From Modestobacter roseus (GTDB lineage Bacteria; Actinomycetota; Actinomycetes; Mycobacteriales; Geodermatophilaceae), in NCBI RefSeq assembly GCF_007994135.1, contig NZ_VLKF01000001.1, forward strand, positions 868,001-932,000: DNA of 64,000 bases. The letters are read 5' to 3'. Under the pieces are notes generated by a model. The model had not been told where the DNA came from, searched no databases, and saw nothing but the letters and a program-made list of their open reading frames with translations. Of the stretch, positions 2,188-37,440 are shown piece after piece. The position numbers and the translations under genes are program-made. Numbering within the stretch: position 1 is the first letter of the stretch; the number at the start of each line of letters is the position of its first letter.

Positions 2188-4194
2188 TCACCCGAAGCTG
2201 ATGAGGATGCGGACGGTGCTGCCCTGGTCGACGACCTCGCCGGCCCGGGGGCTCTGCTGGAACACGCGGTCGCCCGCGATGAACTGCGTCTGCTCGACCT
2301 CCAGGCCCGCCTGCGTGAGCAGCGCGGTCGCCTCGTCCCTGGACTTGCCCTTCACGTCGGGCACGGTCACCTGGGGCACGCCCTCGGAGACGGTGATGGT
2401 GACGGTGCTCCCGTAGGGCTGGGCGGCGTCCCCGGGGCCGGGGCTCACCGCCATCACCTCGCCGGGGTCCACGTCGGCGCTGCGCCCGGTGGCGGTGGCG
2501 ACCTCGAAGCCGCGCTCGGTCAGGTTGGCGGTCGCGGCGTCCGGGCTCAGGCCGACGACGTCGGGCACCTTCACCGGGGCCCGCCCGGCGCTGACCACCG
2601 CGGTCACCGTGTCACCGCGCTTGAGCTCGGTGCCCGCCGCCGGCTCGAAGCCCAGCACGGTGCCCCGGGGCTGCTCGTCGTCGAACTCCTCGCGCGAGGT
2701 CAGGGTCACCGGCACCCCGCCCTCGGTGAGCGCGGCCTGCACGGCCTCCAGTGGCTGCCCGACCAGCGCGGGGTCGACCTCGAACCGCTCCCGGCCCTTG
2801 GAGAGCACCAGGGTCACGTCACTGCCGCGGATGGCCTCGCCGTCGGCGGGGTCGGCCGAGATCACCGTGCCCGCCGGGACGTCCTCGCTGAAGACCTCCT
2901 CGCCGAAGACCGGGTCGAGCCCGGCCTCCTGGAGCAGGCCGACCGCGGTGTCCCGGTCCTGGTTGAGCAGGTCGGGCACGTCGGTGAACCGGCCGCTGCC
3001 CAGCCACCAGCCGACCGCGCCGATGGTGATCGCCAGCAGCAGCACGACGGCCATGGCCAGCCGCGCCCGGCGGCGGCGGATGTGCGGGGGGACGCCCGGC
3101 CGGACCGTGGGCTGCCGGGGCGCCGGGGACCGCGCACCGCCCAGGTGCGCGGTGGCGCCGCTGCCGCCCAGCACGGTGGTGCCCCGGCTGCGGCCGCCGC
3201 CGAGCACCTCGGTGCGCGGCTCGCTGCGGCCGGTGCCCGGCGCGCTCGCCGAACGGGGGCGCGGCGCGGTCGTCCGGTTCACCGGGCGCATCGCCGCGGG
3301 GCCGTCGGTGGTGCGCCCGGTGGGCACCGGCACCCGGGCGAGGCCCAGGTCGGTGCGCAGGTCGATGAGCTCGGCGAGGAAGGCCCCGGCGTCCAGCGGC
3401 CGGGCGGCGGGTTCGCGGCGCGTCGTGCGCGCGACCAGCTCGTCGACCTGCCACGGCACGCCCGGCACCTCCGCCGACGGCGCCGGCACGTCGTGGTGCA
3501 CGTGCTGGTAGGCGACCGCGAGCGCGGTGTCACCCTGGTACGGCGGGTGCCCGGTGAGCAGCTCGTAGAGCATGATCCCCGCGGCGTAGACGTCGCTGCG
3601 GGCGTCGCTGCGCCCGCGCTCGAGCTGCTCGGGGGACAGGTAGGCGACGGTGCCGATGAGCACCCCGCCGGTGTGGCTGGTCTGCCCGGTGCCGGCGACC
3701 GCCCGGGCCAGCCCGAAGTCGGCGACCTTGACCTCGCCGTCGGTGGAGATCAGCACGTTCTCGGGCTTGACGTCGCGGTGCGCGATCCCCGCCCGGTGGG
3801 CCGCGGTGAGGCCGGCCAGCACCGGCTCCAGCACGGCGAACGCCTCCCCGACGGTGAGCCGGCCGCGGGCCTGCAGCAGGTCGCGCAGCGTGCGCCCGCG
3901 GACCAGCTCCATCACCAGGAAGACCAGGCCCTGGTCGGCGCCCTGGTCGCTGACCGAGACGACGTTGACGTGGCTGAGCATCGCCGTGGCCCGGGCCTCC
4001 CGGGTGAACCGGTCGACGAACGCGGGGTCGTGGGCGAGGTGCTCGGCCATCACCTTCACCGCGACGGTGCGGTGCAGCCGCAGGTCGGTGGCGGCGTAGA
4101 CGGTGGACATGCCGCCGCGGGCGAGGCGCTCCTCGAGGCGGTAGCGCCCCTCGAGGAGCAGGCCGACCGCGGGGTCGGTCACGACGGTGTCCAC
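2188..4194 (-). CDS. pknL: PASTA-domain serine/threonine protein kinase (PknL-like)
   Basis: Membrane receptor kinase of the PknB/PknL class that senses peptidoglycan or lipid II and phosphorylates division and wall proteins. In the 668 residues, the cytosolic kinase domain (about 15-280) has Lys47 in VAVKV, HRDVKPEN with catalytic Asp141, DFG at 159-161 and a Thr/Ser-rich activation loop. A linker rich in Arg/Pro follows, one membrane helix near 380-400 (AMAVVLLLAITIGAVGWWL), then four PASTA repeats to the C-terminus. The name PknL rests on context: an Rv2175c-like gene lies 1.3 kb away, as in Mycobacterium where PknL phosphorylates Rv2175c. PknB-like is the alternative. Confidence 0.88.
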   Translation of the reverse strand: MDTVVTDPAVGLLLEGRYRLEERLARGGMSTVYAATDLRLHRTVAVKVMAEHLAHDPAFVDRFTREARATAMLSHVNVVSVSDQGADQGLVFLVMELVRGRTLRDLLQARGRLTVGEAFAVLEPVLAGLTAAHRAGIAHRDVKPENVLISTDGEVKVADFGLARAVAGTGQTSHTGGVLIGTVAYLSPEQLERGRSDARSDVYAAGIMLYELLTGHPPYQGDTALAVAYQHVHHDVPAPSAEVPGVPWQVDELVARTTRREPAARPLDAGAFLAELIDLRTDLGLARVPVPTGRTTDGPAAMRPVNRTTAPRPRSASAPGTGRSEPRTEVLGGGRSRGTTVLGGSGATAHLGGARSPAPRQPTVRPGVPPHIRRRRARLAMAVVLLLAITIGAVGWWLGSGRFTDVPDLLNQDRDTAVGLLQEAGLDPVFGEEVFSEDVPAGTVISADPADGEAIRGSDVTLVLSKGRERFEVDPALVGQPLEAVQAALTEGGVPVTLTSREEFDDEQPRGTVLGFEPAAGTELKRGDTVTAVVSAGRAPVKVPDVVGLSPDAATANLTERGFEVATATGRSADVDPGEVMAVSPGPGDAAQPYGSTVTITVSEGVPQVTVPDVKGKSRDEATALLTQAGLEVEQTQFIAGDRVFQQSPRAGEVVDQGSTVRILISFG

Positions 4195-4348
4195 GGCGGT
4201 GAGTCTAGGAGCGGATCCCGCCGGCTGGACGAAACGACGCGGACTCGTCGGGGCGGTGGGCCGGGTGTGACCCGATGGGCTGGACGGACGGTGGGGCGCC
4301 GGTCCACGTCCTGGCCGACCGGGGCCGCGATCGACCAGCCGCCGTCGC

Positions 4349-5461
4349 TCAGCCCGCGGGCCGTCCCGCCCGGACGACGGTGTCGCGGGGGACGGACCGC
4401 ACGTCGTCGAGGCCGCACACCACCATGGTGTGCGACAGCTCCCCGGTCAGGCCACCCAGCACCCGCGCCACGCCGTCGGCGCCGCCGGCCGCCAGCCCCC
4501 ACGTGGTCGGCCGCGCGACGAACACCGCGCGGGCGCCCAGGGCCAGCGCGACCAGCACGTCCGAACCCGAGCGGATGCCGCCGTCGACGTAGACGTCGAC
4601 CTCGCCGGCCACCGCGTCGACCACCTCCGGCAGCGCGTCGGCGCTGGCCACGACCGGGTCGGCCTGCCGGCCGCCGTGCGTGGAGACCCACACGGCCGCG
4701 GCGCCGGCCTGCACGCAGCGGACCGCGTCGTCACCGCGGAGGACGCCCTTGACCACCACCGGCAGCCCGGAAAGGTCGGCCAGGCGGCGGATGTCGGCCG
4801 ACGTCCAGGCCGGCGACTCGGCCGCCCGCATCGAGACCGGTGCGCCACCGGCGCCGGGGTGGTTGGCCATCGGCAGCCCGGCGGGGAGGTCGAAGCCGTT
4901 GCGCAGGTCACGCAGCCGCCGGCCGAGCACCGGGACGTCGACGGTCAGCACCAGGGCGGTGTAGCCGGCGGCACCGGCCCGCCGGGCCAGGTCGTCGGTG
5001 TACTCGCGGGAGTGCAGCTGGTAGAGCTGGAACCAGCGTGGCCCGGCCGGGGTGACCGCGGCGACGTCGGCCAGGGCGGTGTTCGCGCTGGTGGAGACGG
5101 TCATCAGCGCGCCCACCTCGGCCGCACCCCGGGCGGTGGCGCGTTCGCCGTCCGGGTGCGCCATCGCCTGGAACCCCCAGGGCGCCACCCCGACCGGGGT
5201 CGCCACCGGTTCGCCCAGCAGCGTCGTCGCCAGCCGCGGCGGGGCGTCGCCGCGGAGGACCCGCGGGCGCAGCCGCCAGCCGCGCCAGGCCGCGGTCGCC
5301 TCGCCCAGGGTGATCTCCGCCCCGGCGCCACCGGCGTAGTAGTCGTGGACGGCGGCCGGCAGCTGCTGCCGGGCCGCCTCCTCCAGCGCCGCCAGGTCCA
5401 GGAAGAGGGGTGGGCTGTCGGGGTCGCCCGGGCCCGTCGCCGCGTTCGCAGAGCTCGCCAT
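4349..5461 (-). CDS. FMN-dependent alpha-hydroxy-acid oxidase/dehydrogenase family
   Basis: Flavoprotein that oxidises an L-2-hydroxy acid to the 2-oxo acid (lactate or glycolate oxidase, lactate monooxygenase or LldD type). The 370-residue TIM barrel shows the HDYYAGGAG opening, QLYQLHSREY, VVKGV and, most telling, STHGGRQ with the active-site His and Arg, followed by DGGIRSGSDV and ARPTTWGLAAGG phosphate-binding segments. The substrate cannot be told from sequence. The start chosen is the ATG at 5461 (MASSANA); an upstream start would run into the divergent gene at 5475. The two starts are 13 bp apart inside an inverted repeat, so the genes share a control region. Confidence 0.85.
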   Translation of the reverse strand: MASSANAATGPGDPDSPPLFLDLAALEEAARQQLPAAVHDYYAGGAGAEITLGEATAAWRGWRLRPRVLRGDAPPRLATTLLGEPVATPVGVAPWGFQAMAHPDGERATARGAAEVGALMTVSTSANTALADVAAVTPAGPRWFQLYQLHSREYTDDLARRAGAAGYTALVLTVDVPVLGRRLRDLRNGFDLPAGLPMANHPGAGGAPVSMRAAESPAWTSADIRRLADLSGLPVVVKGVLRGDDAVRCVQAGAAAVWVSTHGGRQADPVVASADALPEVVDAVAGEVDVYVDGGIRSGSDVLVALALGARAVFVARPTTWGLAAGGADGVARVLGGLTGELSHTMVVCGLDDVRSVPRDTVVRAGRPAG

Positions 5462-30261: not shown

Positions 30262-31224
30262 TCAGGCCGCCGGAGCGGTGACCTGCAACGACATCGGGTG
30301 CCAGGTGCGCCAGTGCGCCGGCCGCAGCGCGCGGCAGGTGGTCAGCGCGGCCACCTCCGAGCGGCGGCTCTCGATCGTGACCCGCACGTCGCCGTCCGGC
30401 GAGCCCAGGGTCACCGCCCAGCGCTCCACCCCCTCGCCCGGGGAGGGCAGGTGGGTCAGGTGCACCAGCGGCAGGTCGCCGACCCCGAGCAGCCCGAGCT
30501 CGGCCCGGGCGTGCTGCTGGGCGGCCTGGGCCGCCGGCGCCCAGCCCGACCGGCCGCGCAGCCACGGCAGCGCGACCTCGCCCCGGGCGTGGGCGGCCAC
30601 CAGCTCGACGCCGTCGGTGGGCACCTGCCCGTAGACGTGCCCGGTGGGCAGCACCAGCACGTTGGCGGCGAACCGGTCCCCGCCGAGGTGGCTGGTCTCC
30701 CAGACCTCCGCCGCCCCCGCGGCGACCAGGCCCTGGGTGAGCGGCCGGCCCCGCACGGCGCAGCACGCGTCGTGCGCGCCGTGGGTGCAGACCAGGTACG
30801 AGGGGACGTCGGTCGGTTCGCCGACCGAGCCGTCCCAGGGCACCTCGAGCAGCTCGGCATCGGTCTCCCGGGTCGCCCAGCGCACCGTCTCCACCCCCGG
30901 GGTGGTGTCGGCCAGCGCCCACCGCCGGCCGGTGTCGGCCAGCCGCCCGCCGGGCCGCCGCACCAGCTGCACCCGGACGCCGGCCTCCCGCGCGCGGGCC
31001 GCCAGTCGTGGGGCCACCGCCTGGTCGAACCGGGACTCCAGCAGCGCGTCCCGCCCCCACGGCCCGGGCTGCTCGACCAGCAGCCAGCGCCGGGCCGGCG
31101 GCGCGGTGGCCGTCGGTGCATCACCGCGCACCAGCGCCTGCACCGAGCAGCGGCCCTCGTCGAGCCGCCCGGCGGGACGGCGGGCGGGCGACTGGTCACC
31201 CACCGACGGCGTCATGCCCCCCAT
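30262..31224 (-). CDS. Sucrase/ferredoxin-like family protein
   Basis: Thioredoxin-like-fold protein of 320 residues of the Suc_Fer-like family. The diagnostic parts are LVCTHGAHDACCAVRGRPLTQGL (Cys cluster that may hold a 2Fe-2S centre) and WETSHLGGDRFAANVLVLPTGHVYGQV. Function is not established; a redox role is likely. ATG at 31224 or 31215 could start it; either overlaps the upstream cupin gene's 3' end by 20-29 bp, so translation is probably coupled. It is the last gene of the small-protein-cupin-Suc_Fer operon on minus. Confidence 0.83.
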   Translation of the reverse strand: MGGMTPSVGDQSPARRPAGRLDEGRCSVQALVRGDAPTATAPPARRWLLVEQPGPWGRDALLESRFDQAVAPRLAARAREAGVRVQLVRRPGGRLADTGRRWALADTTPGVETVRWATRETDAELLEVPWDGSVGEPTDVPSYLVCTHGAHDACCAVRGRPLTQGLVAAGAAEVWETSHLGGDRFAANVLVLPTGHVYGQVPTDGVELVAAHARGEVALPWLRGRSGWAPAAQAAQQHARAELGLLGVGDLPLVHLTHLPSPGEGVERWAVTLGSPDGDVRVTIESRRSEVAALTTCRALRPAHWRTWHPMSLQVTAPAA

Positions 31225-32551
31225 CGTGCCCGCCGGTGCGCGCGGGCGCGTCGGCCCGGGCGTCGGGGACGAGCGCGATCGACTCGGTCACCAGCCGGCG
31301 GGCCAGGGTGAGCTGGTCGTCGGCGTCCAGCCCGGGCAGGTCGCCGACCTTGAGCTCGCCCGCGGCCAGCAGCGCGGCCAGGGCGGCGTGGGTGCTCGCC
31401 GGCAGGTCGTGGGTGCGCCGGCCGGCGACCAGCGCCACCCGGTCGCCCACCGGCTCGCGGAGCTGCGCGCGCAGCAGCGGTCGTACACGCAGCACGGTCT
31501 CGCCGTCCAGGGCCGCGACGGCGGCCGACTGGGCCAGCGGCGACACCGGCGCCGGGCGCACCTGCGCCCAGGTGCGGGCGCGGAGGGCGTCGGCGACGGC
31601 GGCCGGGTCGACCTCGCCGATCCAGCGCTGCAGGCCGCTGAGCACCGCGGCGACGTCCTCGGTGGTGGCCGCGGGGTCGGCCAGGTCGACGCCGAGCGGC
31701 AGCGAGCCGCGCAGCGCGGGGTCGTCGGCGGCGAGGGTGCGCACCAGGTCCAGCGCCGACTCGACCGCGCCCCAGCGGGTCACCGAGTGCACCCCGACGG
31801 TCAGGTGGGCGCTGATCTCCCCGAGCGCGACCGCGGAGTGCAGGTAGCCGCGGGGGAGGTAGAGGGCGTCGCCGGGGCGCAGCACCGCGTCGATCACCGG
31901 CGGGCGCTCGGCCGCGGCGGCGACCTCGGCGGCCCGGTCGGTCCAGGGCTGGGTGCGCAGCGGGTCGGGCAGCACCGGCTCGTGGATGGTCCAGTGCTTC
32001 TCCCCGGCGACCTGCAGCACGAAGACGTCGTGCACGTCGTAGTGCGGGGAGAAGCCGCGCGAGGACGGCGGGGTGACGTAGGCGTTGACCTGCGTGGGGT
32101 GGCCGAGGTCGGCGGCGAGCTGGCCGGCGAAGTCGATCAGCGGCGGCCACAGCCGGTGCAGCCCCTGCAGGACGACGGTGCTGCCCTCGGCGAACAGCCG
32201 GAGCACCGCGTCGGAGGAGACCTGGTCGGCGACCTCGGCGCCGGCGCCCTGGGGGCTGGTGAACCGCTTGGCGTCGACGACCGCGCCGTCCTTGGCGATG
32301 CGCAGGAACGGGGTGCGCAGGCCGCGGGTGCTCAGCAGCTCGTCGACCGCCTCGAGGCTCAGCAGGTCGGTGAAGGTGCCGCCCAGCTCGGCGGCGGTGG
32401 ACAGCAGCGGGCGACGCGACCAGTGCTCGGCGGCGAAGACGTCGGGGTCGACGGCGATGCAGCGGCGCAGCGCGGGGCGGGCACCCGGGGAGCGGGCACC
32501 GCCCTCCACGGGGGAGGACGGTGCCCGGTACTGCGGTTCAGGGTCGAGCAC
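31196..32551 (-). CDS. Cupin-4/JmjC-like protein (ribosomal oxygenase type)
   Basis: 2-oxoglutarate/Fe(II) oxygenase-like protein of 451 residues. The jelly-roll domain has PPSSRGFSPHYDVHDVFVLQVAGEKHWTIHEP with the HxD metal ligands, and PGDALYLPRGYLHSAVAL with the distal His. This is the Cupin_4 group related to YcfD/ROXA, which hydroxylates an arginine of ribosomal protein L16; the target here is inferred at most. The C-terminal half is helical with a winged-helix-like end. GTG at 32551 lies 2 bp after the stop of the repeat-rich small gene. Confidence 0.85.
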   Translation of the reverse strand: MLDPEPQYRAPSSPVEGGARSPGARPALRRCIAVDPDVFAAEHWSRRPLLSTAAELGGTFTDLLSLEAVDELLSTRGLRTPFLRIAKDGAVVDAKRFTSPQGAGAEVADQVSSDAVLRLFAEGSTVVLQGLHRLWPPLIDFAGQLAADLGHPTQVNAYVTPPSSRGFSPHYDVHDVFVLQVAGEKHWTIHEPVLPDPLRTQPWTDRAAEVAAAAERPPVIDAVLRPGDALYLPRGYLHSAVALGEISAHLTVGVHSVTRWGAVESALDLVRTLAADDPALRGSLPLGVDLADPAATTEDVAAVLSGLQRWIGEVDPAAVADALRARTWAQVRPAPVSPLAQSAAVAALDGETVLRVRPLLRAQLREPVGDRVALVAGRRTHDLPASTHAALAALLAAGELKVGDLPGLDADDQLTLARRLVTESIALVPDARADAPARTGGHDGGHDAVGG

Positions 32552-32553
32552 GG

Positions 32554-32841
32554 TCAGGCCGAGCCGTCCGCGCCGCCGTCGTGCTGCCCCGGGGTGCCGC
32601 CGCCGGCACCGGAGTCGGCCGGGCCCTCGGCCCCGCCGTCGGCGCCACCGTCGGCACCGCCGTCGGCACCGCCGTCCGCGCCACCGTCGTGCTGGCCGGG
32701 CGTGCCGGCACCGGCTCCGCTGTCCGCGGGGCCCTCGGCGCCGCCGTCGGCACCGCCGTCGTGCTGGCCGGGCGTGCCCTCACCGGCACCGGAGTCGGCC
32801 GGGCCCTCGGTGCTGGTCATGTCCTCGTCGTCGAGCGCCAT
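32554..32841 (-). CDS. Acidic Gly/Ala/Asp repeat small protein
   Basis: A 95-residue, low-complexity acidic protein. After MALDDEDMTST it consists of three copies of GPADSGAG(x)GTPGQHDGGADGG, the middle one expanded with extra GGAD units. GGAGGAGCC is an excellent ribosome site before ATG 32841, and the stop is 2 bp from the cupin start, so it is a real first gene of that operon. No function is recognised. The His-Asp pairs in PGQHDGG could bind metal, but this is speculation. Repeat number probably varies between strains. Confidence 0.7.
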   Translation of the reverse strand: MALDDEDMTSTEGPADSGAGEGTPGQHDGGADGGAEGPADSGAGAGTPGQHDGGADGGADGGADGGADGGAEGPADSGAGGGTPGQHDGGADGSA

Positions 32842-32974
32842 GGCTCCTCCGATCGTCGAGTCGCGGCCGCCGGTCGGCGGCCCCGGGCCAGTTCTACCGC
32901 GATGATCGACTCGCCACACCTCGGTGGCCCGACCCCGGTGCCACGACATCCGGTAGGGGACGACGGAGTGCGGC

Positions 32975-32992
32975 ATCATCACCGGTGATGAT
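32975..32992. promoter_or_regulatory. 18-bp perfect palindrome over the acyl-CoA dehydrogenase start
   Basis: ATCATCACC (32975-32983) joined to GGTGATGAT (32984-32992), with no spacer. The plus-strand GTG (32985) and ATG (32988) start codons lie in the right arm. It separates the minus-strand cupin operon from the plus-strand quartet and is a candidate operator for either. Confidence 0.5.
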
Positions 32993-33971
32993 CACCTCAG
33001 GGACCGGCGCCGACGACCCGGTGGCGCGGACCGCGTCGTCCTTCCGGTCGCTGCTGGAGGCAGGGTGGTCCCCGCCGCTGCCCGGCGCCGGGGCGACCCT
33101 GGACCGCTGGCGGCAGTTGGCCGCCCTCGCCGAGCGCGACCTCCCGCTGGCCCGGCTGGCCGAAGGCCACGCGGACGCCGTCGCGGTGCTCGCCGAGCTG
33201 GGGGAGCCCGAGACGCCGCACGGCGCCCGGCTGGGCGTGTGGGCGGCCGAGCCGCCGGACGGCCGGGTCGCCGCCACCCCCACCGACGACGGCGGCTGGC
33301 AGCTGACCGGCCGCAAGCGGTGGTGCTCCGGTGCGGGGGTCCTCACCGCCGCGCTGGTCACCGCGACCGCCGACGACGGACGGCGGCTCTTCCTGCTGGA
33401 CCTGGACCACCCGGGGGTGCGGGTCGACCCGACCGCGTGGGTCGGCGCCGGGATGGCCGGCAGCGACACCGCCGACGTGCACCTGCACGACGTCCCGGTC
33501 CGGCCGGTCGGCGGTCCCGGGGCCTACCTGGCCCGGCCCGGCTTCTGGCACGGCGGGATCGGCGTCGCCGCCGTCTGGGCCGGTGGCGCCCGGGGCGTCG
33601 CGGCCGCACTGGTCGCCGCCGCGGTCCGGCGCGGCCCCGACCCGCTGCGGGACGCCGCCGTCGGCGCGGTCGACGTGCTGCTCGCCGGGGTGGACGCCGC
33701 CCTGCGGGGAGCTGCGGCGGAGGTCGACGCCGACCCGCTGGACCGGGCCGGGACGGCCCAGCTGCGGGCCCAGCGGCTGCGGGCGCTCGCCGCCCGGGCC
33801 GGGGAGGAGGTGCTCGGCACCGTCGGCCGCGCGCTGGGGGCGGCGCCGCTGGCGCACGACGCCGAGCACGCCGCCCGCGTCGCCGACCTCACCGTCTACC
33901 TGCGCCAGCACCACGGGGAACGGGATCTCGCCGCCCTGGGCGCCCTGGTGCGCGAGCGGGCCGCCCGGTGA
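32988..33971 (+). CDS. Acyl-CoA dehydrogenase family protein
   Basis: Flavoprotein of 327 residues resembling acyl-CoA dehydrogenases. GGWQLTGRKRWCSGAGVLTAALVTA is the flavin-binding middle beta domain, followed by VRVDPTAWVGAGMAGSDTADVHLHDVPV. The helical C-terminus is shorter than in standard enzymes (about 380), and the usual catalytic Glu is not obvious, so dehydrogenase activity is uncertain. First gene of a four-gene unit with GTGA overlaps (acyl-CoA DH, PIG-L, methyltransferase, GT2). Confidence 0.78.
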   Translation: MITSGTGADDPVARTASSFRSLLEAGWSPPLPGAGATLDRWRQLAALAERDLPLARLAEGHADAVAVLAELGEPETPHGARLGVWAAEPPDGRVAATPTDDGGWQLTGRKRWCSGAGVLTAALVTATADDGRRLFLLDLDHPGVRVDPTAWVGAGMAGSDTADVHLHDVPVRPVGGPGAYLARPGFWHGGIGVAAVWAGGARGVAAALVAAAVRRGPDPLRDAAVGAVDVLLAGVDAALRGAAAEVDADPLDRAGTAQLRAQRLRALAARAGEEVLGTVGRALGAAPLAHDAEHAARVADLTVYLRQHHGERDLAALGALVRERAAR

Positions 33972-34717
33972 CGGGACCCGAGGACCGGATCGCCGCACCC
34001 GGCACCGACGAGGTGACCTGGGCGGCGTGGCTGCCGGCGCAGGACTGGCCACGGTGGGTGCCCGACCCGGCGTGGACCCGGGTGGCGGTCTGCGCCGCCC
34101 ACCCCGACGACGAGGTGCTCGGCGCCGGCGGGGTGCTGGCCCTGCTCGCCGGTGCGGGGATCGCGCTGCACCTGGTCGCGGCCACCGACGGCGAGGGCAG
34201 CCATCCGGGCAGCGCGGTGCTCTCCGCGGCGGAGCTGGCCACCCGGCGGGTGGCCGAGACCCGGGACGCGCTGGCCGAGCTGGGGGTCGCGGCCACCACC
34301 ACCCGGCTGGCGCTGCCGGACTCCGGGCTGGCCGCGCGGGAGCCGGAGCTCACGGCCGCGCTGGCCGCCGCGGTCGAGGGGGCGGACGCCGTCCTGGCGC
34401 CGTGGACCGGGGATGCACACCCCGACCACGAGGCGGTCGGCCGGGCGGCGGTGGCCGCGGGGCGCGCGCTCGGCGTGCCGGTGTGGCAGTACCCGGTCTG
34501 GACGTGGCACTGGGCCACCCCGGACGACGCCCGGGTGCCCTGGCACGCGGCGCACCGGGTCGACCTGCCAGAGGGGGTGCGGGCGGCGAAGCGGGCCGCG
34601 GTGGCCCGGTTCACCACCCAGGTCCGGCCGCTGGGCCCGGACCCGGCCGACCGGGTGGTGCTGCCACCGGAGGTGCTGGCCCACTTCGACCGCGACTGCG
34701 AGGTGCTCTTCCGGTGA
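33968..34717 (+). CDS. PIG-L family N-acetylglucosaminyl deacetylase
   Basis: Zinc-dependent de-N-acetylase of the PIG-L/MshB family (249 residues). AVCAAHPDDEVLGAGGVLALLAGAG (about 38-62) holds the His-Pro-Asp-Asp zinc motif and catalytic Asp. The third ligand is in WTGDAHPDHEAVGRAA. These enzymes remove acetyl from GlcNAc linked to a lipid or glycan. GTG overlaps at both ends tie it to the acyl-CoA dehydrogenase and the NodS-like methyltransferase. Substrate not known. Confidence 0.87.
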   Translation: MTGPEDRIAAPGTDEVTWAAWLPAQDWPRWVPDPAWTRVAVCAAHPDDEVLGAGGVLALLAGAGIALHLVAATDGEGSHPGSAVLSAAELATRRVAETRDALAELGVAATTTRLALPDSGLAAREPELTAALAAAVEGADAVLAPWTGDAHPDHEAVGRAAVAAGRALGVPVWQYPVWTWHWATPDDARVPWHAAHRVDLPEGVRAAKRAAVARFTTQVRPLGPDPADRVVLPPEVLAHFDRDCEVLFR

Positions 34718-35328
34718 CCCTGCCCCCGTCCTTCTTCGACGCCATGTACGCCGCGGCCGAGGACCCCTGGTCCATGCGCGCCCGGTGGTACGAGCGGCGC
34801 AAGTACGCCCTGACGACGGCGGTGCTGCCGCGCGAGCGCTACGCCGAGGGGTTGGAGGTCGGCTGCTCGGTGGGGGAGCTGACCGCCCGGCTGGCCGACC
34901 GGTGCGACCGGCTCACCGGGTGGGACGCCAGCGCCGCGGCGGTCGAACGGGCAACCCGCCGGGTCGCCGGCGCCGGCTCTGTGCGGATCGAGCAGGCCAC
35001 CGTCCCGGACCACCCGCTCCCGCAGGTCGACCTGCTGGTGCTCTCCGAGGTCCTCTACTACCTCGACCAGCCCGACCTGCAGCGGTTCCTGGCCCAGGTG
35101 CCCGGCGCCGTCCGCCCCGGCGGCACCGTGCTCGCCGTGCACTGGCGCCACCCCGTGGCGGAGTACCCGCAGACCGGCGACGCGGTGCACGAGGCGCTGC
35201 GCGCGGCGCTGCCCTGGCCGCGGGTGGCCGCGCACGAGGAGCCGGACCTGCTGCTGGACTGCTGGGTGGTGGCCGGCGCCGACGACGTCCGCGCGGCCTC
35301 GGTGGCGGCCGCCGAACAGCTGTGGTGA
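34714..35328 (+). CDS. NodS-like SAM-dependent methyltransferase
   Basis: Small class I methyltransferase of 204 residues. It opens FFDAMYAAAEDPWSMRARWYERRKYALTTAVLP, the characteristic start of NodS-type enzymes, then LEVGCSVGELTARLADRCDRLTGWDAS (SAM motif I) and VDLLVLSEVLYYLD (motif IV). NodS N-methylates the deacetylated glucosamine of Nod factors, which fits the adjacent deacetylase. The actual acceptor is unknown. GTGA overlaps at both ends. Confidence 0.83.
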   Translation: MTLPPSFFDAMYAAAEDPWSMRARWYERRKYALTTAVLPRERYAEGLEVGCSVGELTARLADRCDRLTGWDASAAAVERATRRVAGAGSVRIEQATVPDHPLPQVDLLVLSEVLYYLDQPDLQRFLAQVPGAVRPGGTVLAVHWRHPVAEYPQTGDAVHEALRAALPWPRVAAHEEPDLLLDCWVVAGADDVRAASVAAAEQLW

Positions 35329-36053
35329 GCGGGGTCGACCTGCTCGGGGTGGTGGTGCCGGCGCGGGACGAGGAGGAGCTGCTGCCCGGGTGCCTGGCGG
35401 CCCTCGCGGCCGCGGCCGCCCACCCGGAGCTGTCCGGGGTGGCCGTCCGCGTGCTGGTGGTGACCGACGGGTGCACGGACGGCACCGCCGCCGTCGGCCA
35501 CGCCGCCGGGGTCACCGTCGTGCCCGGAGCCGGTCGGGGGGTGGGCGCGGCCCGGGACCTGGGGGCGCGGACCGTGCTGCACGCCGCGCGGCAGGAGGGG
35601 GTGCCGGCCGGACGGGTGTGGCTGGCCTGCACCGACGCCGACAGCCGGGTGCCCGCCGACTGGCTGGTCGTGCACCGGGCGGCCGCCGCGGCAGGGGTGG
35701 ACGCGCTCGCCGGCACGGTGACCGTCGAGGACTGGTCCGGTTTCCCGCCCGGCGCCGAGGCGGAGTTCACCGCCGCCTACACCGCGTGGCGGGGTGCCCC
35801 GGACGCGGTCCACCCGCACGTGCACGGCGCGAACCTCGGCGTCCGCGGGGACGCCTACCTCGCCGCCGGTGGCTTCCCGCCGCTGCTGGTCGGGGAGGAC
35901 CACGGCCTGGTCGACGCGCTCGTCGCCGGGGGAGCGGTGGTGCTGCGCAGCCCGGCGGCCCCGGTGCGCACGTCGTCCCGGCGGGTGGCCCGGGCGCGGC
36001 TGGGCTTCGGCGCGGACCTGGACCGGCTCGCCTGCCGGCTGGGAGCCGACTGA
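35325..36053 (+). CDS. Family 2 glycosyltransferase
   Basis: GT2 enzyme of 242 residues. LLGVVVPARDEEELLPGCLAAL begins the fold; VLVVTDGCTDGTAA and CTDADSRVPADWL give the DxD metal site; VHGANLGVRGDAYLAAGGFPPLLVGEDHGLVDAL is the acceptor/ED region. No membrane helices, so it is soluble or peripheral. Last member of the quartet. Its presence next to a GlcNAc deacetylase and NodS-like methyltransferase suggests it adds the sugar they modify. Confidence 0.83.
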   Translation: MSGVDLLGVVVPARDEEELLPGCLAALAAAAAHPELSGVAVRVLVVTDGCTDGTAAVGHAAGVTVVPGAGRGVGAARDLGARTVLHAARQEGVPAGRVWLACTDADSRVPADWLVVHRAAAAAGVDALAGTVTVEDWSGFPPGAEAEFTAAYTAWRGAPDAVHPHVHGANLGVRGDAYLAAGGFPPLLVGEDHGLVDALVAGGAVVLRSPAAPVRTSSRRVARARLGFGADLDRLACRLGAD

Positions 36054-36168: not shown

Positions 36169-37440
36169 GTGTCCGATCGGGCTGCCGGCTGCACGGTGCT
36201 GCACGTCGACATGGACGCCTTCTTCGCCAGCGTCGAGGTGCGCCGGCACCCCGAGCTGGCCGGCACGCCGGTGATCGTCGGCGGCGCCGGCAACCGCGGG
36301 GTGGTCACCTCGGCCACCTACGAGGCCCGGGCCTACGGGGTGCACAGCGCCATGCCGACGTCACGTGCCCTGCGGCTCTGCCCGACCGCCACCGTGCTGC
36401 CCGGTGACCTGGCGCTCTACGCCGAGGTCTCCCGCTCGGTCATGGCGCTGTTCCGCAGCGTCACCCCGCTGGTCGAGCCGCTGAGCCTGGACGAGGCGTT
36501 CCTCGACGTCTCCGGCGCCGGTCGCCGGCTGGGCGGGCCGGTGCAGATCGGCGAGTACATCCGGGGCCGGGTCTTCGACGAGCAGGGGATCACCTGCTCG
36601 GTCGGGGTGGCCGGGAGCAAGTTCGTGGCCAAGCTGGCCTCCACCCGGTCCAAGCCCGACGGGCTGCTGGTGGTGCCGCCGGCCGAGGTCATGGACTTCC
36701 TGCACCCGCTGCCGGTCGGGGCGCTGTGGGGTGTGGGCGCGAAGACCGAGGAGGTGCTGCTGCGCCTGGGGCTGAAGACGGTGGGCGACCTGGCGCACGT
36801 GCCGGCCCGCACCCTGCAGCGGGCGGTGGGTCAGGCGGCCGGCAGCCACCTGCACGAGCTGGCCTGGGGGCGCGACCCGCGCCGGGTGGTGCCCGACGAG
36901 CCCGACCGGTCCACCGGGGCCGAGGAGACCTTCGGCACCGACGTCGACGACCCCGCGGTGGTGCACCGGGAACTGCTGCACCTGGCCGAGCGGACCGCGG
37001 GGCGGCTGCGCTCCACCGGCCACCTGGCCCGCACGGTCACCCTCAAGGTCCGCTTCGCCGACTTCACCACGATCACCCGGTCGCGCACCTTGAAGGTCCC
37101 GACCGACGTGGGCCAGGAGCTGTACGACACCGCCCGCACGCTCTTCGACGCCCTCGGGCTGGACCGGGCCCGGATCCGGCTGGTGGGCGTGCGGGCCGAG
37201 GGGCTGGTGGAGGCCGAGGGAACCGCCCGCCAGCTGGAGCTCGGTGCCCGGGAGCACGGCCGCCGGGACGCCGAGCTGGCCGCCGACCGGGCCGCCCGGC
37301 GCTTCGGGGCCGGTGCCGTCCGCCCGGCCACCCTGCTCGGTCGCACCCGGCCGCCCGGTGAGCGCCCGGCCACCTCCCGGACGGCGCCGGGGGAGGGGCC
37401 GCGACCGGGGCCGCGACAGGGACCGGGGACCCCTCGCTGA
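36169..37440 (+). CDS. dinB: DNA polymerase IV (Y-family)
   Basis: Error-prone translesion polymerase of 423 residues. Catalytic residues are visible: Asp14 in VDMDAFFASVE and Asp108-Glu109 in SLDEAFLDVSG. ITCSVGVAGSKFVAKLAS is the family signature; WGVGAKTEEVLLRLGLKTVGDLA is the thumb helix-hairpin-helix; the little-finger domain ends near residue 350. The tail is disordered and Pro/Arg-rich without a clear clamp-binding QLxLF. The GTG at 36169 is preferred; the first conserved residues follow 10 codons later. SOS-regulated through the box upstream. Confidence 0.92.
   Translation: MSDRAAGCTVLHVDMDAFFASVEVRRHPELAGTPVIVGGAGNRGVVTSATYEARAYGVHSAMPTSRALRLCPTATVLPGDLALYAEVSRSVMALFRSVTPLVEPLSLDEAFLDVSGAGRRLGGPVQIGEYIRGRVFDEQGITCSVGVAGSKFVAKLASTRSKPDGLLVVPPAEVMDFLHPLPVGALWGVGAKTEEVLLRLGLKTVGDLAHVPARTLQRAVGQAAGSHLHELAWGRDPRRVVPDEPDRSTGAEETFGTDVDDPAVVHRELLHLAERTAGRLRSTGHLARTVTLKVRFADFTTITRSRTLKVPTDVGQELYDTARTLFDALGLDRARIRLVGVRAEGLVEAEGTARQLELGAREHGRRDAELAADRAARRFGAGAVRPATLLGRTRPPGERPATSRTAPGEGPRPGPRQGPGTPR

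Follow-up and report, generated by a model that had tools for sequence, protein, structure and literature searches.

A conserved quartet of deacetylase, NodS-family methyltransferase, glycosyltransferase and flavoprotein genes in Modestobacter roseus and other bacteria

Two described systems stand close to the locus analyzed here. In the biosynthesis of mycothiol and bacillithiol (MshA/MshB and BshA/BshB) a glycosyltransferase links GlcNAc to a small polar acceptor, and the resulting glycoside is deacetylated by a PIG-L enzyme. The nodB, nodC and nodS genes of rhizobia bring together a deacetylase, a NodS-family methyltransferase and a GT2 glycosyltransferase, a combination that recurs in a gene quartet of Modestobacter roseus. 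The quartet lies in a window of 64,000 nucleotides (the whole stretch of DNA that was analyzed) and was originally predicted to follow a Nod-factor-like logic, with a modified glycolipid or small glycoside as the guessed product. The same prediction knew of no assigned product for the set, and a search of the literature (open-access papers only) likewise found no described pathway.

The quartet spans positions 32988-36053 of the forward strand; the region marked in the original prediction starts at 32975, 13 bases upstream of the first ATG. The four genes encode a short-form flavoprotein with the fold of acyl-CoA dehydrogenases (ACAD; 32988..33971, ATG start, 327 aa; Acyl-CoA_dh_M, 2.4e-10), a PIG-L family deacetylase (33968..34717, GTG start, 249 aa; PIG-L, 1.4e-25), a NodS-family SAM methyltransferase (34714..35328, GTG start, 204 aa; NodS, 2.9e-15; DPW at 17 and SEVLYYL at 111), and a soluble GT2 glycosyltransferase of the GT-A fold (35325..36053, GTG start, 242 aa; Glycos_transf_2, 4e-10). 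Each gene is joined to the next by a GTGA stop/start overlap on the same strand, read from the sequence at 33968..33971 (ACAD to PIG-L), 34714..34717 (PIG-L to methyltransferase), and 35325..35328 (methyltransferase to GT2). The overlapped arrangement that had been claimed is confirmed by the reading frames, the junctions and the family matches.

The quartet is a conserved unit. Among 80 loci on genome contigs that were baited with the ACAD gene, all four genes are present within 5 kb in 66, and the 14 loci that lack at least one of them within this distance include seven from Mycobacterium and five from Pseudomonas. In a set of 20 loci from the same order (the window's own locus included), ACAD adjoins PIG-L in every locus and all four genes are present in 19; PIG-L and the methyltransferase share one open frame in nine of the 20, showing that the fusion named in the original prediction is real. 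In a further set of 39 chosen loci and the window, all of them found via ACAD or PIG-L so that the bait itself counts by construction, each quartet family occurs under 26 out of 26 genus labels and the next true neighbor family under 5 out of 26, with no fifth gene of at least 110 aa conserved alongside the quartet. Within the window's family, ACAD was found in 25 of 112 genomes and PIG-L in 26 of 108, with 25 genomes common to both and the PIG-L gene of the extra genome located beside a contig end. The quartet occurs in the Actinomycetota, Pseudomonadota, Deinococcota, and one cyanobacterium, and its distribution is patchy and includes carriage on plasmids. Overall, the four families co-occur across genomes and travel together, and the prediction does not founder on a lack of conserved co-occurrence.

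Genomes of the window's genus either carry the quartet whole or lack it entirely at one site, which is bounded by two genes outside the module, a JmjC_2/cupin gene on the left (31196..32551, reverse strand; Pfam PF08007, 6.2e-27) and the DinB/Pol IV gene dinB on the right (36196..37440, forward strand, start codon not fixed; Pfam PF00817, 1.3e-49). The JmjC gene lies close to dinB in all seven fetched genomes that lack the quartet (gap of 523-1481 b), and the gap between the flanks is 3423-4540 b in all four genomes that carry it.

The PIG-L protein of the window carries the metal-site motifs of its family, HPDD (residue 45) and HPDH (residue 151); HPDDE and the D, H, P, D and H of the second motif are invariant in 18 out of 18 rows of a PIG-L alignment. 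Its best NCBIfam match is BshB1 (49.7 bits, cut-off 182.5), and MshB scores 19.2 bits (cut-off 224.35); being far below both cut-offs, the protein was rejected as a BshB or MshB deacetylase and, as a PIG-L rather than a CE4 enzyme, also as NodB. In 16 out of 16 divergent loci the PIG-L slot is taken by a CE4 deacetylase upstream of ACAD, and no PIG-L gene was found in the examined stretches of these loci. The CE4 profile was built from four of the 16 genomes, and all 12 remaining loci are independent of it. Both of the two CE4 proteins scanned against NCBIfam have NodB as their best match (8.9e-39 and 1.7e-30), with scores of 133 and 106 bits that are under the NodB cut-off of 240 bits. The exchange of PIG-L for CE4 may be a single event; one family supplies 15 of the 16 loci, and PIG-L is kept in other divergent copies in Deinococcus, alphaproteobacteria, and Nostoc. 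The NodB-type loci carry an additional ferredoxin-NAD reductase-like flavoprotein, and on a Rubrobacter plasmid the annotated order is polysaccharide deacetylase, ACAD, methyltransferase, FAD oxidoreductase, and glycosyltransferase. Because an unrelated deacetylase of the NodB family fills the slot in every one of these divergent loci, the exchange suggests that the job of the slot is sugar N-deacetylation.

The methyltransferase belongs to the Pfam NodS family (PF05401; 57.1 bits, cut-off 24) and its nearest characterized structure is that of NodS (3ofj, 1.5e-24). NodS is also its top NCBIfam match, at 62.3 bits versus an equivalog cut-off of 300, a score at which the protein was rejected as a true NodS, and an unrooted tree places the NodS sequences outside the group of methyltransferases from the quartets. 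The solved structure 4isc, presumably from Pseudomonas syringae and titled only "Methyltransferase", is a member of the quartet methyltransferase family (7.4e-68 across the whole chain). No membrane segment is predicted in the methyltransferase. The GT2 protein carries a DxD motif (DAD at 104) and the catalytic acidic pair (ED at 191) in a GT-A fold that gives no readable sugar donor. It has no hydrophobic 19-residue window above 1.6, and the NCBIfam scan at E-values up to 0.01 gave sub-cut-off matches to glycosyltransferase models and none to NodC. A GlcNAc chain of the kind made by NodC is not borne out, and chitin appears an unlikely product because the GT2 has neither a transmembrane segment nor a NodC match. 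From the Nod-factor logic, deacetylation followed by methylation stands, on the CE4/NodB exchange and the kinship to NodS, whereas chain synthesis and acylation fall away, as NodC finds no counterpart and the NodA acyltransferase is absent from the four proteins, with no conserved fifth gene of the size surveyed to take its place.

The reading favored here, with moderate confidence, is that the quartet is a self-contained mobile operon whose product, a small N-methylated amino-glycoside that is probably cytosolic, serves under stress. The GT2 would transfer an N-acetylhexosamine (most likely GlcNAc) to a small acceptor; deacetylation of the transferred sugar by the PIG-L enzyme would follow, the NodS-like enzyme would methylate the freed amine using SAM, and the ACAD-fold flavoenzyme would oxidize the acceptor or the amino-sugar part at some point in this order. 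An N-acetyl sugar is the probable substrate because two unrelated deacetylase families fill one slot, and N- rather than O-methylation is probable because the methyltransferase is kin to NodS. The sugar donor, the acceptor, the reaction of the flavoenzyme, and the protective role are all parts of the scheme that we infer.

A use under stress is suggested by gene neighborhoods. In Pseudomonas, 18 of 25 loci follow treY-treZ and 6 follow LigD; the quartet lies beside katE, otsA, and otsB in Acinetobacter, beside Ku and LigD in Bradyrhizobium, and beside catalase in Sphingobium and Sulfitobacter. Among the Actinomycetota at least one stress marker accompanies 16 out of 53 loci versus 2 out of 59 random stretches, leaving 37 loci with none, in a comparison for which the markers were chosen after some loci had been seen and loci inside one genus are not independent. 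None of the 17 markers occurs within the window. In a published Acinetobacter baumannii transcriptome study (PMC5660220), otsBA and catalase fall alongside an operon whose four genes bear the quartet's names; this operon, equated with the quartet by these names and its neighbor rather than by sequence, goes down 31- to 62-fold. As a separate observation, the neighboring DUF2171 gene is up, not down, in colistin-resistant A. baumannii (PMC6330354), which counts against the favored reading.

By fold, the ACAD-like protein resembles flavin monooxygenases and acyl-CoA dehydrogenases equally closely. Its sequence-profile matches are led by DszC and by the ACAD-type entries 5gj7 and 5z8t (the latter titled flavin-containing monooxygenase), and among the top rows by profile and by fold are DszC, TdsC, MsuC, and three amino-sugar nitrososynthases (DnmZ, KijD3, and 3mxl). 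These matches leave a slim chance that the protein is a flavin monooxygenase of the DszC/nitrososynthase kind, oxidizing the amino-sugar nitrogen to yield an N-oxygenated amino glycoside, for which the additional flavoprotein of the NodB-type loci could supply electrons. However, the fold does not decide the type of flavoenzyme because ordinary dehydrogenases lie within about 1 Z unit of the best fold rows, and the PIG-L-type loci have no conserved reductase. The modified glycolipid of the original prediction, in which the ACAD enzyme would shape an acyl chain that is then placed on the methylated amino sugar, is improbable. The ACAD fold, shared with monooxygenases, is no evidence for a lipid product; in an alignment judged by eye, the two columns presumed to be the catalytic Glu sites show no conserved Glu, the MCAD-type column holding L, V or I in all 65 rows and the IVD-type column G in 58 rows and D in the other 7. 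Furthermore, no acyltransferase, ACP, ligase or thioesterase family of at least 110 aa is conserved with the quartet, and neither GT2 nor methyltransferase has a membrane segment. An acylation step is not supported. A bioactive secondary metabolite (antibiotic or signal) instead of a stress product would fit the patchy distribution, the plasmid carriage, and an MFS gene that adjoins some Acinetobacter copies, but we give it little credence, as no exporter, resistance gene or regulator of at least 110 aa is conserved and so nearly constant a gene content across four phyla was judged unusual for such clusters. Very improbable is a PIG-L enzyme acting, like the detoxification amidase Mca, on a non-sugar conjugate in an operon that degrades or recycles a compound: PIG-L is a broad family whose enzymes also act on non-sugar amides, and oxidative-stress neighbors would fit detoxification, but a slot that a CE4/NodB-type polysaccharide deacetylase can take over, together with the near-constant GT2 and methyltransferase, points to sugar modification and synthesis.

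If the favored reading of an N-methylated amino-glycoside is true, bacteria from soil, from plants, and of radiation-resistant kinds share a widespread metabolite that has escaped notice, although its genes frequently have trehalose, catalase, and end-joining genes as neighbors. It would be a concrete target for metabolomics in easily handled species, would give a function to the orphan structure 4isc, and would provide a biochemical handle on what seems to be the same stress operon in the A. baumannii transcriptome.

Compared with mycothiol and bacillithiol, the likeness lies in the PIG-L enzyme and its BshB1 match, whereas no cysteine ligase is conserved with the quartet and methylation and a flavoenzyme appear instead. 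A trifunctional protein on plasmids of Sulfitobacter and Rhizobium leguminosarum is annotated with glycosyltransferase, SAM methyltransferase, and polysaccharide deacetylase activities in one chain; unlike the quartet, it sits among polysaccharide genes with no ACAD in the examined stretches, and its methyltransferase groups with NodS and not with the quartet (93/95 support, unrooted tree). The Nod genes differ in having NodA and NodC, in lacking the extra ACAD-fold flavoenzyme, and in a CE4 rather than a PIG-L deacetylase, although the 16 CE4-type loci draw theirs from the family that contains NodB. More speculatively, and with a low probability, the quartet might represent a further general low-molecular-weight sugar pathway beside trehalose and the sugar thiols, making an N-methylated, oxidized amino-glycoside protectant in bacteria of four phyla, desiccation- and radiation-hardy ones among them, with two unrelated deacetylases recruited and the rhizobial NodB and NodS stemming from this enzyme pool as well. 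Under the favored reading, the quartet would be a relative of the NodB-NodS step outside symbiosis, with a possible bearing on the origin of the nodulation genes.

The quartet is a real, conserved and mobile four-gene pathway. It consists, on the forward strand of the window, of an ACAD-like gene (32988-33971, Pfam Acyl-CoA_dh_M), a PIG-L gene (33968-34717, Pfam PIG-L, motifs HPDD and HPDH), a NodS-like methyltransferase gene (34714-35328, Pfam NodS, motifs DPW, GCSVG and SEVLYYL) and a GT2 gene (35325-36053, Pfam Glycos_transf_2, motifs DAD and ED). The overlaps described in the original prediction are borne out, with all three junctions reading GTGA. All NCBIfam matches found for the quartet proteins were well under the curated cut-offs, which places the proteins outside any named equivalog. 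The interval separating the quartet from the JmjC gene contains a reverse-strand frame of 142 aa (32554-32982), which is composed mostly of Gly-, Ala-, Asp- and Pro-rich repeats such as GTPGQHDGGADGG and has no match in Pfam.

Among 61 genomes of the same order, the window's own included, 28 contained a PIG-L match at 1e-15, and the best 20 loci (the window's own being one) were retained. ACAD adjoins PIG-L in all 20 and the quartet is complete within 1.5-kb flanks in 19; the exception, L018, contains ACAD and PIG-L, with the other two genes absent within these flanks. A single open frame spans PIG-L and the methyltransferase in 9 of the 20 loci, in agreement with the fused proteins from elsewhere cited in the original prediction. 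An ACAD-alignment search of genome contigs returned at least 468 confirmed relatives, and all four genes (60 bits or more) lie within 5 kb in 66 of the best 80 loci, which are the nearest relatives of one query and sample the family unevenly. The arrangement is that of the window in 33 of the complete loci, GT2 comes first in 20, a second PIG-L is terminal in 11 and two are arranged otherwise. The 14 incomplete loci belong to Mycobacterium (7), Pseudomonas (5), Streptomyces (1, at a contig end) and Actinospica (1, with GT2 slightly further away). Six of the Mycobacterium loci (L041, L042, L060, L062, L063 and L066) keep ACAD and lack GT2 on contigs that continue, some of them also without a nearby methyltransferase or PIG-L. 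Clustering of neighbouring frames of 110 aa or more in 39 loci and the window placed each quartet family in 26 of 26 genus labels and the next non-shadow-frame family in 5 of 26, so that the conserved module, at this gene size, is these four genes; all clustered loci were found via ACAD or PIG-L, and the counts of the bait therefore hold by construction while those of the other members do not. The co-occurrence across genomes that the original prediction had proposed as its check is thus present.

At 1e-30, 25 of the 112 genomes searched in the window's family contain ACAD and 26 of 108 contain PIG-L, and all 25 ACAD genomes fall within the 26 PIG-L genomes. ACAD was not found in the remaining genome (G426), even by a looser search; its PIG-L (3796-4488, reverse strand) is located at the edge of a contig 4609 bases long, and the ACAD would therefore fall past that edge. 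The quartet site in the window's genus lies between a JmjC_2 gene (31196-32551, reverse strand, in the window) and dinB (36196-37440, forward strand). The JmjC gene was found in eight quartet-less genomes, and in all seven of these that were compared the distance to dinB is 523-1481 bases; it is 3423-4540 bases in four of four quartet-bearing relatives (three of the genus and one of another genus) and 3644 bases in the window. Judged by gap length, the whole quartet is gained or lost at this single site. It is also plasmid-borne: a plasmid collection contained PIG-L relatives in 24 records, 19 of them from Acinetobacter; a few of the Acinetobacter or other records are of chromosome size. Some copies appear to be damaged. 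The GT2 match of a Pandoraea plasmid copy (L022, 9316-9955) is split over two overlapping frames and the gene is probably broken, and two family genomes, G447 (ACAD and PIG-L each matching as two pieces) and G454 (PIG-L as two pieces), look as if frame-broken.

Named records place the quartet in Actinomycetota, gamma-, beta- and alphaproteobacteria and Deinococcus, and a profile search identified an unannotated cyanobacterial quartet on a Nostoc plasmid. GT2 is on the opposite strand in several distant copies and was not found in the locus stretches examined for some others. A lichen Paraburkholderia plasmid carries the methyltransferase and GT2 with no ACAD or PIG-L nearby. The Deinococcus radiodurans locus (L172) has a helicase gene between PIG-L and the methyltransferase and an ACAD gene whose annotated 2340 bases make it roughly double the normal size. 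In 11 Pseudomonas loci (L064, L065, L069, L072, L073, L078, L083, L086, L094, L100 and L103) GT2 is directly followed, at about 11.0-12.0 kb, by an additional and more distantly related PIG-L gene, confirmed by Pfam in L072; in L071, L075 and L079, which have no GT2, this gene follows the methyltransferase. It may serve a second deacetylation or be a mere paralogue.

A stress role for the quartet is plausible. The quartet follows treY-treZ in 18 of 25 Pseudomonas loci (17 also with malQ), the two amylase-family genes presumably being treY and treZ from their order, and follows LigD in six; one locus is near none of these genes. Neighbours elsewhere include katE, DUF2171, an iron-containing redox protein, otsA and otsB (Acinetobacter plasmids), Ku and LigD (Bradyrhizobium), a catalase (Sphingobium and Sulfitobacter W074) and a general stress protein (Komagataeibacter). 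Going by gene names, the Deinococcus, Roseomonas and Rubrobacter stretches lack such neighbours, the one exception being a Rubrobacter PRC-domain protein, and the window contains none of 17 stress markers. At least one of these markers (1e-10) was present in 16 of 53 actinomycete quartet loci versus 2 of 59 random stretches (60 stretches of 16.9 kb were drawn from 14 genomes belonging to the order and class of the window, and one that contained the quartet was excluded). By genus label the enrichment (7/21 versus 2/59, Fisher p 0.0009; katE and LigD alone, 5/21 versus 1/59, p 0.004) is suggestive only, as the comparison is biased towards the quartet: marker choice followed inspection of part of the loci, a genus represented by numerous loci can score a marker more easily than a lone random stretch, and the random stretches came from genomes other than those of the quartet loci.

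No description of the four-gene set was found in the open-access literature searched. In two colistin-dependent mutants of Acinetobacter baumannii, ACICU_02432-02435, treated as one operon and named glycosyltransferase, SAM-dependent methyltransferase, LmbE protein and acyl-CoA dehydrogenase-related protein, fall 31- to 62-fold alongside trehalose-6-phosphate synthase, the corresponding phosphatase and a catalase (PMC5660220); in section 8 of that paper nothing is inferred from the drop. The adjoining ACICU_02436, a DUF2171 protein, is up in colistin-resistant isolates (PMC6330354). ACICU_02432-02435 appear to be the same quartet, judged by gene names, gene order and the adjacent DUF2171 gene, a neighbour that recurs beside the quartet on the Acinetobacter plasmids. 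Gene neighbourhood has also been used to predict LmbE, a glycosyltransferase and a methyltransferase as partners of BlsA (PMC9948694).

A phylum-wide sample contained ACAD (1e-20) in 31 of 296 genomes. In 16 of the loci retained from this sample (L121-L136, 15 from one family) a divergent ACAD is followed by the methyltransferase, with no PIG-L within the locus stretches examined. A CE4 polysaccharide deacetylase lies directly upstream of ACAD in 16/16 of these loci; the profile used was made from longer stretches around four of the loci's own genomes' copies, so that 12/12 count as independent of it. The four larger stretches share the order CE4 (called by Pfam in all four), ACAD, methyltransferase, pyridine-nucleotide flavoprotein and GT2, and an independently annotated Rubrobacter plasmid has the same order; in L152-L155 and L171 the flavoprotein between the methyltransferase and GT2 resembles ferredoxin-NAD reductase. 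Nearly all genomes of the CE4 type belong to one family and the swap may therefore be a single event; the divergent ACADs of Deinococcus, alphaproteobacteria and Nostoc retain PIG-L. PIG-L and CE4 are unrelated folds, and deacetylation of amino sugars is what their sugar-active members have in common. The swap is the strongest evidence in hand, if indirect, that the slot performs amino-sugar deacetylation.

Amino-sugar chemistry is likely for the quartet, and the modified glycolipid suggested by the original prediction is unsupported, as is any lipid product. The Nod-like logic proposed there holds in part. NodB is the top NCBIfam match of two CE4 proteins (8.9e-39 and 1.7e-30, under its cut-off) and NodS that of the methyltransferase of one CE4-type locus (5.1e-26). 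The quartet operates in the manner of the deacetylation and N-methylation steps of Nod factor synthesis but does not belong to that system. On plasmids of Sulfitobacter and Rhizobium leguminosarum, polysaccharide genes surround genes for one-chain proteins (L174, 5393-8473; L185, 3408-6410) whose annotation reads trifunctional glycosyltransferase/SAM methyltransferase/polysaccharide deacetylase.
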